The position numbers and the translations under genes are program-made. Below, piece after piece: positions 15,127 through 41,844 of a stretch of 64,000 nt of DNA (position 1 is the first letter of the stretch; the number at the start of each line of letters is the position of its first letter). The notes under the pieces were generated by a model. That model searched no databases and had not been told where the DNA came from. It was given only the letters and a program-made list of their open reading frames with translations. Source of the DNA: an uncultured Leptolyngbyaceae cyanobacterium (GTDB taxonomy: Bacteria > Cyanobacteriota > Cyanobacteriia > Leptolyngbyales > Leptolyngbyaceae); NCBI GenBank assembly GCA_938023035.1, contig CALIDI010000049.1, forward strand, positions 1 to 64,000. Direction: 5' to 3'.

Positions 15127-16107
15127 ATGACGGATGGTGCTTCTCAAACAACGGATCAAGCGGTCGTGGACTTGCCAGCCGTGGTTGAAACCCATGAGTT
15201 GAGTAAAGTTTACCGTACTGGGTTTTGGCTTAACCAAAAGGTGACATCTCTGAAGGCTTGTACCCTTAGGGTGACCCAGGGGGAAACTTTTGGGTTGCTA
15301 GGGCCAAACGGGGCGGGTAAAACGACCCTGCTGAAAACCTTGCTGGGAATTACTCGTCCCTCTAGTGGCAGCGGCACTGTTTTAGGCAAACCTCTGGGCG
15401 ATCGCGGGGTCAAGCAGCGCGTGGGCTATCTACCAGAGAATCCCTATTTTTACGACTATCTCACGGGCTGGGAAATGGTACAGTTTACAGCCGGTTTATT
15501 CCAGATTCCAGCAGCGGTGCAGCGTCGTCGCATTCCAGAGTTACTCGATCTGGTCGGTTTGGCCCAGTCAGCCGCCAAGGGTAAACAATTGCGGCGATAT
15601 TCTAAGGGGATGCTGCAACGGGTTGGGATGGCCCAGGCACTGATTAATGACCCAGAGGTCGTGTTTCTAGATGAGCCGATGTCGGGGTTAGATCCCTTGG
15701 GACGTTACCAGATTCGGGAAATTATTCAATCACTCAAAGCCCAGGGTAAGACAATTTTCTTCAATAGTCATGTGCTGTCAGATGTGGAGCGCATTTGCGA
15801 TCGCGTCGCAATTTTAGCCCAGGGCGAACTGCTGTGCATCGGTTCCTTGCAAGAGCTGTTGGGAAAAGCCGATACTTATTTTGTGCGGGTGCGGGGTGGC
15901 AACCCAACGGTGCTCAAGCAGCGCGTCGCCGACCTCACCTTTGATGAGGGCACTTGGCAGGGCCATTTGATGGGGAGTCCTCAGGATTTTTTGGCAAGCC
16001 TGCACTTAATGGGTGGCCAATTGGTTTCTCTAGAGTTGGCGCGCTCTTCCCTAGAAGAGTTCTTTGTCGATCAACTCCGACAGCGCGGTATTCTCGTGAG
16101 TAGTTAG
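15127..16107 (+). CDS. ABC transporter ATP-binding protein, CcmA/NatA type
   Basis: A 326-residue ATPase. Walker A is GPNGAGKTT (about residues 59-67), the signature is YSKGMLQRVGMAQAL in place of canonical LSGGQ, Walker B is VVFLDEP, and the switch histidine is in FNSHVLSDVERICDR. The C-terminal 90 residues form the accessory domain usual in this drug/lipid/Na+ exporter subfamily. There is no adjacent permease; the TVP38 gene follows by about 20 bases and may be co-transcribed. The ATG at 15127 follows the repeated 40-base motif. Substrate unknown. Confidence 0.88.
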   Translation: MTDGASQTTDQAVVDLPAVVETHELSKVYRTGFWLNQKVTSLKACTLRVTQGETFGLLGPNGAGKTTLLKTLLGITRPSSGSGTVLGKPLGDRGVKQRVGYLPENPYFYDYLTGWEMVQFTAGLFQIPAAVQRRRIPELLDLVGLAQSAAKGKQLRRYSKGMLQRVGMAQALINDPEVVFLDEPMSGLDPLGRYQIREIIQSLKAQGKTIFFNSHVLSDVERICDRVAILAQGELLCIGSLQELLGKADTYFVRVRGGNPTVLKQRVADLTFDEGTWQGHLMGSPQDFLASLHLMGGQLVSLELARSSLEEFFVDQLRQRGILVSS

Positions 16108-20042: not shown

Positions 20043-21140
20043 TTACCGCGATCGCCCCCAGAGGCGTTTCACTTCTTCTAACACGGCTGTATTCGGGGTT
20101 GGAACCACCTGCCCTGACGGATTAACCTCTACACCGGGGATATTTTGACTCCAGGGGCTACCGGGCACCAACTGCACATCCACCCGACTCACCACGGGCC
20201 GAAACCCAAATTGCACAAAGACTGCTTGCTGTTCGGGTTGGGTCAAAAAATCCAAAAACTTGCGAGCAGCATCGGCAGTGCGACTATTGACATTACGGCG
20301 GGCGATCGCAGCGGTGGAAACCGTTTCAATCGTGGGGTTGAGGTAAAAAACCTGGTAAGGGCTGCCCTTACTGGCACTAGCCTGTTGCCACCGATGCAGG
20401 GCAATACTTTCATAAACCGTTGCCACATCCGCATCATTTGGCCCCCGACTAATGAATTCTTGCAGAAGAATGTCGGTCGAGCGGGGTGGATTGTAGACTG
20501 ACTTATGCACCAGACTAAACAGAGACTGCACCGGCGGTGTCGCTAAATCGCCAGGGTTCAGCGGGCGGCCTCCCAGCTTGGCCTGTCCCCATAAAGCCAT
20601 CGTCAGCTGGCCGCTGTTGGAGCGTTCGGGGTCAGTCATCACAAAGTCAAAGCTTCCCCACTCCGGCTGGCCTCCAAGGGCACTCCAGTTTTGCCTCTGC
20701 ATCGCCTGCTCAATGCGTTCCCAACGAAACTTGCCATCAGGAAACAGCACCCGCGCCCGTTCTGGCCAGGCCACTGCCACTATCTGGGTTTTGGCCACAG
20801 GGCGGGGGGCGTCGTAAAACGCAGGTTCGCCATTCTGCGTTTGCCAGCGCTGGCTGAGTTCCTGCAAGATTGCTCCATTCGCTGGAATCAGCACCGTTGG
20901 CTGAAAGTCGTTGCGCTCGTTGAAGTAGCGATCGGCTACTTCTTGAGAACCTTGAAACTTTAGATCGACCTTAATGTTGGGATTTTGCTGCTGAAACTGA
21001 TTCTGCAAAGCCATGAGTGGTTCTTGCAACTCTGTCCCTGCGACGACGGTGATCGTGCGACTCACTCCTGGTAAGGGTACATAGGCCAACCCCAGGGCGG
21101 CGGCAATGATGCCCAATGAAGTCACTATTTTTGTATTCAT
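20043..21140 (-). CDS. Periplasmic solute-binding-like protein (third gene of VWA operon)
   Basis: A 365-residue protein with an N-terminal membrane anchor or signal segment (residues 5-28), then a type II periplasmic binding fold: ITVVAGTELQEPLMALQNQF near the start, MTDPERSNSGQLTMALWGQAKL in the middle, AARKFLDFLTQPEQQAVFVQFGFRPV near the end. The latter resembles molybdate/sulfate-type binding proteins. The ATG has an AAGGA site 6 bases away. It lies 14 bases downstream of the coiled-coil membrane gene. No ABC permease or ATPase is near, so it may bind a ligand or protein rather than feed a transporter. Confidence 0.8.
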   Translation of the reverse strand: MNTKIVTSLGIIAAALGLAYVPLPGVSRTITVVAGTELQEPLMALQNQFQQQNPNIKVDLKFQGSQEVADRYFNERNDFQPTVLIPANGAILQELSQRWQTQNGEPAFYDAPRPVAKTQIVAVAWPERARVLFPDGKFRWERIEQAMQRQNWSALGGQPEWGSFDFVMTDPERSNSGQLTMALWGQAKLGGRPLNPGDLATPPVQSLFSLVHKSVYNPPRSTDILLQEFISRGPNDADVATVYESIALHRWQQASASKGSPYQVFYLNPTIETVSTAAIARRNVNSRTADAARKFLDFLTQPEQQAVFVQFGFRPVVSRVDVQLVPGSPWSQNIPGVEVNPSGQVVPTPNTAVLEEVKRLWGRSR

Positions 21141-21154
21141 CGGTGTTCCTTGTG

Positions 21155-21883
21155 CTATCCCTTGTACACCAGTAAATCCACGTTTTCTTGAAATAACTTC
21201 AGCTCATCGCTGAGGGTTTGCAGTTCTTCCGTTGCCGCTGCATCCTGAAGATTGGCCGTGCGGAGTTGATTTTGCATGGATTGCAATACCCCTGCCGAGT
21301 CGAGGATCAGGCGTGATAAGCTAACAACCTGAGCTTGCCGGGCATCCTGACCTTGTTTTGCTAGTTGAATATTGCGCTCTAAACTCTGGATGAGCTGACG
21401 CAATTGGTCTTTCGCTGCGCCATCGTTTGTGTTATGCAGTCGCATCTGGGCGGTGGTAAGTTGTTTCTGCAGGTCGGCTACTGCAAGCAGCGAATCCTTA
21501 CCTTGCAGCCGGCGGGCAAGCTGGTCAAGTTTTTCCGGTAGCTCTAAGGCGCGATCGCAGGCAAACTGCACCGTCGAAAGTATCTCCATCTGCATCGAGC
21601 TGGTCAGTAACCGACTGGCCTCAGCCCGCAGTTCAGTCGCCTTTTCGGCTAAGGCTTTGGCTTGCTGCTTGACCCCCAGTAGCTCTCGCTCTAGTTCTGG
21701 ATTATCCAGGTTAAGCCGCTCTGGCTCCCTGGATTGCAACAACACCGCTCCGGCGGTTGCCACAATGGCTGAGAGAGGCAAAATGACTGCACTGGGCAAG
21801 TTCGCAAACCGAACTCCTGCCACTAACAATAGGCCACCAGCGGCAACGGCGAAGGGATAGTTGAGAGGGTTCACGAGTTTCAT
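21155..21883 (-). CDS. Coiled-coil membrane protein (second gene of VWA operon)
   Basis: A 242-residue protein with two N-terminal hydrophobic segments (about residues 8-26 and 28-48) and then about 190 residues of almost uninterrupted heptad-like helix (for example LERELLGVKQQAKALAEKATELRAEA). Its ATG lies three bases after the stop of the upstream VWA gene, and the GGAG ribosome site lies inside that gene's last codons, so translation is probably coupled. No enzymatic motif is present. It may tether or scaffold the two binding proteins encoded on either side. I recognise no named family. Confidence 0.72.
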   Translation of the reverse strand: MKLVNPLNYPFAVAAGGLLLVAGVRFANLPSAVILPLSAIVATAGAVLLQSREPERLNLDNPELERELLGVKQQAKALAEKATELRAEASRLLTSSMQMEILSTVQFACDRALELPEKLDQLARRLQGKDSLLAVADLQKQLTTAQMRLHNTNDGAAKDQLRQLIQSLERNIQLAKQGQDARQAQVVSLSRLILDSAGVLQSMQNQLRTANLQDAAATEELQTLSDELKLFQENVDLLVYKG

Positions 21884-21886
21884 CCC

Positions 21887-23614
21887 TTAAAACTCCACTT
21901 GAAGATTAGCCATGACCTGGGCGATCGTCGCCGGATCTCCCTTAGAGTAGTAGCCCCCATTTAACTCTGCAATGGTTTTCAGTGCTTGGGGGTTAAATTC
22001 GCCCTCACCCCCATAACCAATGGTGAAAAAGGCAATGCGCTGAGCGTTATCGGATGAGAACCCGGACTTTCTCAGTTCTTCGCCCAACTGGTTCAGGCGA
22101 ATCCCCGATCCCTCATCCATGCCATCGGTTAGCACAAGAACCGCATTAATCGCATCAGGACGCAGATTTTTTTGCAGCCAGTTGCGGGCAGCCAAGCTAG
22201 CATCATAGAGCCGGGTACCGCCCCGCGCCTCTAGACTGCTGATGTAGGCCAACCCCTGTTCCTTACCCTGAGGGTTACCCTCGATCACAACGGGTTCCCC
22301 AATATCTGAGCTAAAACGAATTAGGGCAACCCTTTCCTTTGGTCCCAGGTTCTCAATGTAGGTCTTTAGGGTGCTCTGTACCGCTGTTAATTTATTCCCT
22401 GTCATGGAGCCAGAAGTATCCACTACAATCGCTACCAGGGATGGCTTTTTCGTCACTTCTTGCCAGGATTTCAGCATCGCATCCACCACTTCAGGGCGGG
22501 GCGGACGGTAGGAATCATAGGCAGGCTGAGGAGTGACCCCATTTTCTGGGGTGAACTTCGCTCCTAAATCTACCCCCGGTACGCCCGGTCGTAAGCCCAA
22601 GTTAACAGCTATTTCCTGGGCTGCGGGCGATCGCAAAAACTCAATGACCTGCTCAGCAGCTTTTTTCTCCTCGGCACTGACCCAAGGCGCATTAGGCAAA
22701 ATTGCCCGCATATTAGAGGAAAACGTCGCCTTAGGATAAACCGCCTCATAGCGGGCCTGCCCCGGTTGCAGGTTGCTATTCGCCTCAATCACCGAAGATT
22801 CATAAACTGAACCCATCGAGGCCCAGAAGGGGCCATTTTGCACCATAGCTTTGGCCAAAGAAGTGGTGGAAACACCATAGCGCGTCACCTTCTTCTGAAT
22901 TTGCTCAATTTGGGGCTGGTATTTCTTCACATCCTCTAGAGTCAGTGCCTCCGGACGCTTTCCCGAAACCGAAGCATACTGGGCCACCAAGGTTTGCAAA
23001 CCAGAGTTAGAGCGAGTCGGAGCCGTATGAACGTAGTGAACCGTCAGCGGTGGGCTAGAAGGCTCCATATCCCGATGAGTTTTGGCATTTACCAAAGGCT
23101 TAAACGGGTCAGGTAATTTGCGCAACCCAGCAGCGACATCCGATTGCGCCATAAACACCATGGGACTGTTGACCAGCAGCGGTGCCTCGGTAATATCAGG
23201 AATATAGTTTTGCCCAGGGAACAGTTGATTCATCTCATAGGCCAACTGACTCTGGTAAATTTCCCCATCCACCGAAATCAACACCGGAAATTCCGGGGAA
23301 TCAGCGGGCAGTGTTCCGGCTTTTAATTGCTGGGCTAAGCTTAAGGTTTTATTCACCACATCTCCAGTGCCCAAAGCTTCGCAGGTGATGTAAAAGCGTT
23401 TGCCATCATCCAGCTTAGGGCCTTGCTGGTTAAACTTCTCAGCCGCCTGAGCGCAAAACTGGTGCAGCGCACTACCGACCAGTAACTTCGCTTCAAACCC
23501 CTGAGGCGCACCGTCAGGAGGAGAGCCAACAGGCCTGCAGGCCGTGAGTAAAAGCAAGCCGAGGGGCAGAAGGCGCTGTGGAATCAACAGGCAAATACGA
23601 GATCTCATAGGCAT
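21887..23614 (-). CDS. Lipoprotein with solute-binding-like and von Willebrand A domains
   Basis: The ATG at 23614 starts MPMRSRICLLIPQRLLPLGL, followed by the lipobox LLTAC; a GTG at 23671 would add 19 residues but lies at a repeat border. The mature protein has a binding-protein-like domain (about residues 40-385: YVHTAPTRSNSGLQTLVAQY, VIEFLRSPAAQEIAVNLGLRPG) and a C-terminal VWA domain (about 395-575) with an intact MIDAS: VVDTSGSMTG, GGTRLYDA, LTDGMDE. VWA domains bind proteins through a metal. It is the first gene of the three-gene operon. Function unknown. Confidence 0.85.
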   Translation of the reverse strand: MPMRSRICLLIPQRLLPLGLLLLTACRPVGSPPDGAPQGFEAKLLVGSALHQFCAQAAEKFNQQGPKLDDGKRFYITCEALGTGDVVNKTLSLAQQLKAGTLPADSPEFPVLISVDGEIYQSQLAYEMNQLFPGQNYIPDITEAPLLVNSPMVFMAQSDVAAGLRKLPDPFKPLVNAKTHRDMEPSSPPLTVHYVHTAPTRSNSGLQTLVAQYASVSGKRPEALTLEDVKKYQPQIEQIQKKVTRYGVSTTSLAKAMVQNGPFWASMGSVYESSVIEANSNLQPGQARYEAVYPKATFSSNMRAILPNAPWVSAEEKKAAEQVIEFLRSPAAQEIAVNLGLRPGVPGVDLGAKFTPENGVTPQPAYDSYRPPRPEVVDAMLKSWQEVTKKPSLVAIVVDTSGSMTGNKLTAVQSTLKTYIENLGPKERVALIRFSSDIGEPVVIEGNPQGKEQGLAYISSLEARGGTRLYDASLAARNWLQKNLRPDAINAVLVLTDGMDEGSGIRLNQLGEELRKSGFSSDNAQRIAFFTIGYGGEGEFNPQALKTIAELNGGYYSKGDPATIAQVMANLQVEF

Positions 23615-23670
23615 GACCAGATTGGTGTTGGGAAAGACAAAAGGTGACCAAACTGTTTCAAGTATTCCCA

Positions 23671-23779
23671 CCTGTGGAGGCCTACCTTTGGGGGGCTAGA
23701 GAATGTTTTAGAAGCCAATCTCCGAGTAGCCCTGACGACTCAAGTCGCAGTGATACGGACAAAGCCCTACCTCCACAGG
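23671..23779 (-). repeat. Dispersed repeat family 2, copy 2, with perfect 10-base terminal inverted repeats
   Basis: CCTGTGGAGG at 23671-23680 is matched by CCTCCACAGG at 23770-23779. Between them, on the minus strand, lies TTTGTCCGTATCACTGCGAC then TTGAGTCGTCAGGGCTAC, shared with 18402-18480 and 52651-52730. The element sits immediately upstream of the VWA lipoprotein gene and may carry or disturb its promoter. Confidence 0.72.
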
Positions 23780-40732: not shown

Positions 40733-41844
40733 GGGGAACCAAGCGATCACTGTGGGTAGGGGGCCTATTGGTTCTGACCCTATTTCTAGTCAGTCTGGTA
40801 TCTGGAGCAGGCAGTGGTGGGGCACAACGCGGCTCAACCTATGGTCGCGGCCCCGATGGCTATGGAGCCTGGTATGCCATGATGGAGCAGCGCCAAGGGG
40901 TTTCGATTCAGCGCTGGCAAAAGCCCCTAGATCAGTGGTTGGCAAAAGGGTTGGGCGATCGCCGCACTCTGTTGCAGATCAACAGCGGGAGCGATTCCCT
41001 GTTGCCAAGCAGCTCTTTCCGAGAGTGGGTCAGAAACGGCAATACCCTTGTGCTGCTAGGGGTGAATGCGCCCGTCACACCCGTACCCTTTCGCCAGAGA
41101 ATCAACCATCCCGCTGGCACAGTGCTGATTGAGACGCGCCGTCGTGCCACGAAAGTCGATGGCCTTCTCAAGGACAGTGCTGGAGCCGTCGTTTGGCAAG
41201 AGTCTCTCGGCTCCGGAAAAATCATCTACGCCTCCACACCCCATCTGGCAGCCAACGCCTATCAAGGACAGGAAGGTAACTTTGAGTTATTAGCACAAGT
41301 GGTGAGTGACTCCGGTGCCCCCATCTGGGTGGATGAATATCTCCACGGTTATAAAGATCGAGAAACCATTAAACAAGAATTGGGAGAAGAAAATTTATTC
41401 TCCTATCTAGCCAAAACGCCTCTACTGCTAGTCGGCATCCAGGCCGTTGTGATGGTGTTGCTTGCTGTTCTGGGGCAGCGGCGGCTAGGGCCACCGGTTG
41501 AACTCATCCCACCCCCTATCGATAACAGCACGGCTTACATTACAGCAATGGCGCAGGTCTTGCGTAAGGCTCAATGTAGCGAGTTTGTCGTTGCAACGAT
41601 TAGCAAGGCAGAGCGTCAGGCAATTCAGCGGGCATTGGGTTTAGGAACCGATCCCCTCTCCAATGAGGAACTTTTAGCCGCTTGGACGCAACAAACCTCC
41701 CGTCCTGAGACAGAATTAAGAATGGTGCTGAACCTCGCCGAAAAGCCGCGATCGCTCGATGAAGTTAAACTTATCCAGTGGTTGCAACGGCTACAAGCTG
41801 TTCGCCGCTGGTTGCCCCATTCTGTTAGAGGCCTTCGCCCATGA
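40729..41844 (+). CDS. DUF4350 membrane protein
   Basis: A 371-residue protein starting at the overlapping ATGA at 40729. N-terminal helix LWVGGLLVLTLFLVSLVSGA; soluble DUF4350 domain (YGAWYAMMEQRQGVSIQRWQ, WVRNGNTLVLLGVN, GSGKIIYASTPHL); a second helix at about 240-260 (LLLVGIQAVVMVLLAVLGQRR); and a helical tail. It lies between the DUF4129 and MoxR genes with four-base overlaps on both sides, showing tight translational coupling. Function unknown. The family is part of a MoxR-linked membrane complex of unknown job. Confidence 0.85.
   Translation: MRGTKRSLWVGGLLVLTLFLVSLVSGAGSGGAQRGSTYGRGPDGYGAWYAMMEQRQGVSIQRWQKPLDQWLAKGLGDRRTLLQINSGSDSLLPSSSFREWVRNGNTLVLLGVNAPVTPVPFRQRINHPAGTVLIETRRRATKVDGLLKDSAGAVVWQESLGSGKIIYASTPHLAANAYQGQEGNFELLAQVVSDSGAPIWVDEYLHGYKDRETIKQELGEENLFSYLAKTPLLLVGIQAVVMVLLAVLGQRRLGPPVELIPPPIDNSTAYITAMAQVLRKAQCSEFVVATISKAERQAIQRALGLGTDPLSNEELLAAWTQQTSRPETELRMVLNLAEKPRSLDEVKLIQWLQRLQAVRRWLPHSVRGLRP

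Follow-up and report, generated by a model that had tools for sequence, protein, structure and literature searches.

A three-gene cyanobacterial operon encoding two binding-type proteins and a membrane-anchored coiled coil is most likely a TelA-less form of the TelA/SBP/VWA operon

What role might two proteins of the solute-binding type play when the operon that encodes them contains neither a permease nor an ATPase? The question is raised by three genes in a 64,000-nucleotide stretch of DNA from an uncultured Leptolyngbyaceae cyanobacterium (contig CALIDI010000049.1; the whole stretch is referred to as the window), in which GCGATCGC sites, which we take to be the HIP1 motif, are frequent. The genes, here called A, B, and C, all lie on the minus strand in the order A-B-C, at the coordinates assigned by a first-pass annotation of the window, with 3 bases separating the stop codon of A from the start of B and 14 bases separating B from C.

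Gene A (21887–23614) encodes a lipoprotein of 575 amino acids, counted from an ATG, with an N-terminal solute-binding domain and a C-terminal VWA domain. A program-made list of open reading frames gives an alternative GTG start (21887–23671, 594 amino acids), and the ATG at 23614 is preferred over the GTG at 23671. From this ATG the signal peptide ends in the lipobox LTAC (23537–23548); of 51 A sequences, 40 have a strict lipobox pattern, and a looser version with the cysteine in place can be seen by eye in 7 of the remaining 11. The solute-binding domain (22550–23449) matches SBP_bac_8 (Pfam, E = 6e-23) and carries at residues 221 to 224 an SNSG motif that is identical in 51/51 A proteins. 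The VWA domain (21926–22435, E = 1e-14) has a complete MIDAS, formed by D418, S420, S422, T486, and D516 in the numbering of the 594-residue form. When alignment columns are checked, these residues are identical in all 51 aligned cyanobacterial A proteins and are present at equivalent positions in all 83 non-cyanobacterial A proteins, which supersedes regular-expression counts of 33/51 and 73/83; the low cyanobacterial count reflects variation of the middle G of GGT among the cyanobacterial sequences.

Gene B (21155–21883, minus strand) encodes a 242-amino acid protein of no named family, in which a two-helix membrane hairpin precedes a coiled coil. Hydropathy places the transmembrane hairpin at residues 6 to 44 (21752–21868), with hydrophobic segments at residues 6 to 24 and 26 to 44, and two such segments are found within the first 80 amino acids of 54 of 59 B sequences. 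The residue between them, R25, is an invariant arginine, and because it sits in the loop between the helices, charge alone does not settle the orientation of B. Searches of Pfam and NCBIfam gave no family above cut-off for B, and XpaC (Halogen_Hydrol) was not listed at E ≤ 1 in the Pfam scan, in which HMMER filters can drop weak matches. The plasmid records held no match to B, the PDB yielded a single match at chance level, and PADLOC returned only weak coiled-coil matches.

Gene C (20043–21140, minus strand) encodes an N-terminally anchored solute-binding protein of 365 amino acids (SBP_bac_11, E = 3e-25), in which hydropathy identifies a transmembrane helix at residues 5 to 23 (21072–21128). 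It has in common with the solute-binding domain of A an SNSG motif, at residues 174 to 177 (20610–20621), which is invariant across 15 aligned C proteins. Since A is a lipoprotein and C is anchored in the membrane, the binding domains of both are expected to face the periplasm. Three loci, all from one family (L050, L055, and L056), inform the placement of B, for in them B and C are one protein: the junction reads RR, then a hydrophobic helix, and then the usual PLPG or PIPG of C, so that the helix of C is retained. Because the binding domain of C should be periplasmic and the junction holds a transmembrane helix, the coiled coil of B is predicted with good confidence to lie on the cytoplasmic side. 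The first-pass annotation had described two binding-like proteins, one with a VWA domain, together with a coiled-coil membrane protein, and this is confirmed; its description of A as a lipoprotein with an intact MIDAS likewise agrees with the LTAC lipobox and the full set of five MIDAS residues.

Of 291 genomes sampled from the cyanobacterial class, 63 gave a match in a search with B, and all 63 neighborhoods were covered, as 62 loci (L031–L092) and the window. In 45 of the 62 loci the three genes share one strand and run A-B-C, and in 3 others the B-C fusion follows A. Five loci have A-B without C downstream, two of these near contig ends; one, at a contig end, has B-C only, and B stands alone in 8. 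The arrangement is conserved across distant genomes, which excludes chance as its source. Profile searches over the 291 genomes (cut-offs of E ≤ 1e-60 for A, E ≤ 0.001 for B, and E ≤ 1e-40 for C) detected A in 60, B in 64, and C in 62, with B and C both present in 60/60 genomes containing A; the corresponding Fisher values (p ~1e-58 and ~1e-60) ignore shared ancestry and are not to be read as probabilities. B occurs without A in four genomes (G193, G273, G049, and G285) and C without A in two (G285 and G045); among these exceptions B is fragmented in G049 and shortened in G273, C is partial in G045, and the G285 genome is incomplete. In Cyanobacteria, then, A, B, and C are kept or lost together. 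Genus g30 includes six genomes (G016, G035, G063, G085, G096, and G106) in which all three are present and unlinked, on separate contigs or far apart, and a seventh (G049) with only fragments of B; the retention of A, B, and C while scattered in this genus means that neighborhood alone does not explain their co-inheritance.

A was also found in 19 of 244 genomes in a further sample from the phylum, which partly overlaps the first. In a tree of A the 51 cyanobacterial rows are grouped with support of 100/100, some families clustering and others being dispersed; with 12 forks left open and long outgroup branches, the tree is compatible with, and does not prove, an old presence in Cyanobacteria followed by repeated loss. 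Clustering of the neighbors in the 62 loci revealed no fourth recurring gene, only lineage-specific sets, the largest of which spans 12 loci joined by single linkage. Among the local associations, in the g30 loci (L053, L054, L058, L059, L060, and L061) B is apart from A and C and adjoins a gene for a chorismate-binding enzyme (6/6), and a CbiQ-type transport gene is also near B in 5/6 (by clustering, with Pfam names from L053 and L060). Family f24 has four loci (L046:4915-7350, L062:2282-4589, L066, and L069) in which a TrkA-N domain protein is encoded close to B, and in G193 and G273, where A and C are missing, B is still beside a TrkA-N gene, as if it were a remnant of loss. In L073, L074, L078, L087, and L049, A or C is split, shortened, or interrupted by a stop, reflecting either decay or sequencing errors.

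The first domain of A and C both have the periplasmic type-2 binding fold, the same fold as the binding proteins of sulfate, molybdate, and ferric ABC importers. Orphan binding proteins are common, and one reading of the operon would be that A and C are solute-binding proteins for a permease encoded elsewhere, with B as an accessory anchor, such that the three form an uptake module unlinked from its ABC transporter; an ABC ATPase open reading frame does lie ~3.9 kb from the operon (15127–16107). We consider this unlikely. That reading frame is on the opposite strand and, by eye, two unrelated genes intervene, while inspection of the open reading frames of the operon itself found no permease or ATPase. 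A motif scan detected an ABC-ATPase-like open reading frame anywhere in only 5 of the 62 loci, the nearest at 1.2 kb, the strict partner is B and not a permease, and both the VWA domain and the linkage to TelA in other phyla, described below, are foreign to importers. Compared with the binding proteins of ABC importers, A and C are encoded without a permease or ATPase, are membrane-anchored, and are paired with VWA and coiled-coil proteins.

The nature of the ligand is less easily approached. The model of C (pLDDT 86.9, built with 33 C-like rows from outside Cyanobacteria) has sulfate-binding proteins as its top structural matches (Z = 27.4 and 27.1), with a thiamin-binding protein tied (Z = 26.6) and ferric, polyamine, and sugar binders slightly lower. 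The model of A (pLDDT 79.8) matches ITIH4 and other VWA domains, and also sulfate, ferric, and polyamine binders. Because the type-2 fold is broad and other binders score close to the sulfate ones, these matches are only a hint of ligand class, and we suggest an oxyanion-like ligand for A and C tentatively. By sequence, the nearest PDB entries to the profile of C are molybdate/tungstate binders (7tav, E = 8e-8). This proximity, together with the use of VWA/MIDAS domains in metal insertion machines, would accommodate a chaperone or assembly device in which C and the VWA lipoprotein would load an envelope protein with a metal or anion cofactor that they hold, B serving as the anchor. Such a role seems improbable, given that no cofactor-synthesis gene recurs beside A-B-C among the neighbors of the 62 loci and that the AAA+ partner usual for VWA proteins of this kind is not linked to A-B-C.

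Action on VWA proteins is a general property of MoxR ATPases, one of which is encoded within the same window, on the plus strand at 41841, which led the first-pass annotation to name it as a conceivable partner acting on the VWA domain of A. This gene follows a DUF4129 gene and overlaps the end of a DUF4350 gene, forming with them a cluster of its own 18 kb from the operon and on the other strand. MoxR should reside in the cytoplasm, whereas A, which carries the VWA domain, is a lipoprotein, and MoxR is not a recurring neighbor in the 62 cyanobacterial loci. With nothing tying MoxR to A, the partnership is rejected, and we regard a MoxR-VWA system here as extremely improbable. The remainder of the earlier proposal, that the operon is an envelope device not engaged in transport, has fared better: no permease or ATPase is near apart from the single ATPase reading frame, the three-gene order that it suggested examining is conserved, the three genes are co-inherited, ABC-ATPase-like reading frames are rare around them, and homologs beside a full ABC transporter, sought as evidence against it, were found by the motif scan in none of the 62 cyanobacterial loci. 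What that proposal overlooked is a counterpart outside Cyanobacteria, the TelA operon.

Searching plasmid records with A revealed SBP-VWA proteins in several phyla. The annotated gene order in Sphaerotilus and Variovorax is a hypothetical protein (~375–380 amino acids), a toxic anion resistance protein, the SBP-VWA protein, and a second hypothetical protein (~210–226 amino acids). An alignment of three SBP-VWA proteins from the plasmid records was then used to scan genome contigs; in the best 80 of 99 loci, a set biased to Burkholderiales, a C-like protein, TelA, A, and a hairpin protein are all present in 68, and singly TelA is found in 72, the C-like protein in 76, and the hairpin protein in 78. 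Since the HMMs were grown on the same loci over three rounds, these counts describe the consistency of the operon and not independent detection. TelA was identified as PF05816 by Pfam in 5/5 scanned loci. The TelA-linked SBP/VWA operon occurs in Burkholderiales, Lysobacter, Acidobacteria, Deinococcota, and others.

Judged from their profiles, A and C are homologous to proteins of this operon. HHalign aligned C with the profile of the TelA-linked C-like protein over 309 columns (98.8% probability, E = 5e-17); C scores 127.0 with the C-like profile and 111.3 with the domain of A from outside Cyanobacteria, a modest margin, and A scores 126.8 with the outside A profile and 33.4 with the C-like one. 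The two operons have in common the A and C counterparts, a small membrane-hairpin protein, and the invariant MIDAS, whereas the cyanobacterial operon lacks TelA, differs in gene order, and has the B-C fusion in one lineage. B resembles the hairpin protein in architecture with no detectable sequence homology: the best HHalign match between the two (E = 0.005, 17 columns) is not convincing, and a comparison exploring B as a distant TelA likewise gave nothing convincing. TelA was not found in the source genome and exceeded the cut-off in 0/291 genomes of the cyanobacterial class, the three sub-threshold matches all being in genomes without A, and TelA as a hidden partner in Cyanobacteria is rejected on these searches. 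We therefore do not file A-B-C as a full member of the TelA operon, TelA having been sought and not found and B giving no convincing match to the hairpin protein; most likely it is a TelA-less variant of this little-studied operon, which is widespread in other bacteria. Among CC-licensed literature, judged by titles and the starts of abstracts, no paper on the A-B-C operon was found.

That A, B, and C form a physical complex appears very probable, and on balance we lean toward the three encoding a single trans-envelope receptor-scaffold related to the TelA/SBP/VWA operon. In such an assembly the hairpin of B would sit in the inner membrane with its coiled coil in the cytoplasm, and A and C would recognize a small oxyanion-like ligand or some envelope molecule that bears one. 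Through a metal ion, the MIDAS of A could hold on to C, or to a different envelope partner, at an acidic group, and the binding signal may pass by way of the helices of C and of B into the coiled coil of B, which would act as a sub-membrane scaffold and fill the position that TelA has in the related operon. This stand-in role is assigned from position and architecture, as B has no detectable homology to TelA or to the hairpin protein. TelA has been linked to resistance to envelope antimicrobials in an account from Listeria (PMC11765107) and has been proposed in another to be part of sub-membrane structures (PMC7824862). In light of these two accounts, the output may well be envelope protection under chemical stress, a role that they suggest and do not establish; we hold a function of A-B-C in envelope stress at somewhat short of an even chance. 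The more specific reading is one that we hold as doubtful, namely that A-B-C is a TelA-independent transmembrane receptor whose two different binding proteins, of which one bears a metal-dependent adhesion domain, cooperate by way of a cytoplasmic coiled coil with a hairpin anchor and not through a kinase, chemoreceptor, or transporter, and that it is old in Cyanobacteria and was lost as a unit in most lineages. TelA, a tellurite-resistance protein, has a known link to envelope stress without a clear mechanism, and the wide operon adds a fixed set of three partners, of which two are periplasmic binding proteins, while the cyanobacterial genes show what persists when TelA is absent. With fixed TelA partners on the one hand and a TelA-less version on the other, a ligand-sensing role of the whole group becomes directly testable.

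Other systems offer partial comparisons. The Ter/TelA stress systems (TerD, TerC, TerF VWA, and TelA), as outlined in PMC7824862, also combine a VWA protein with sub-membrane parts and a proposed role in envelope protection, though that account places the TerF VWA protein among the sub-membrane parts, whereas A is a lipoprotein. In Actinobacteria, SBP-VWA genes of Miltoncostaea and of Streptomyces plasmids are followed by a gene for a protein of 264 to 271 amino acids, and these records have no separate C-like gene or TelA annotated adjacent. The A protein of Miltoncostaea shares 34% identity across 64% of the query, and the small protein of Miltoncostaea has, by eye, a hairpin and then a helical part; in sequence, the actinobacterial small protein is only weakly linked to B (E = 0.007, 20 columns). 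A MAG titled Synechococcaceae (L165) carries a TelA-type operon, unlike the 291 searched genomes, and is possibly mis-binned. In Thiodictyon (L096:1-4396) a phosphate transporter operon is found 5.5 kb away from the SBP-VWA gene, several unrelated genes separating the two, and on a Variovorax plasmid (L100:14214-21137) the TelA operon lies ~2 kb from annotated components of the Wadjet anti-phage system.
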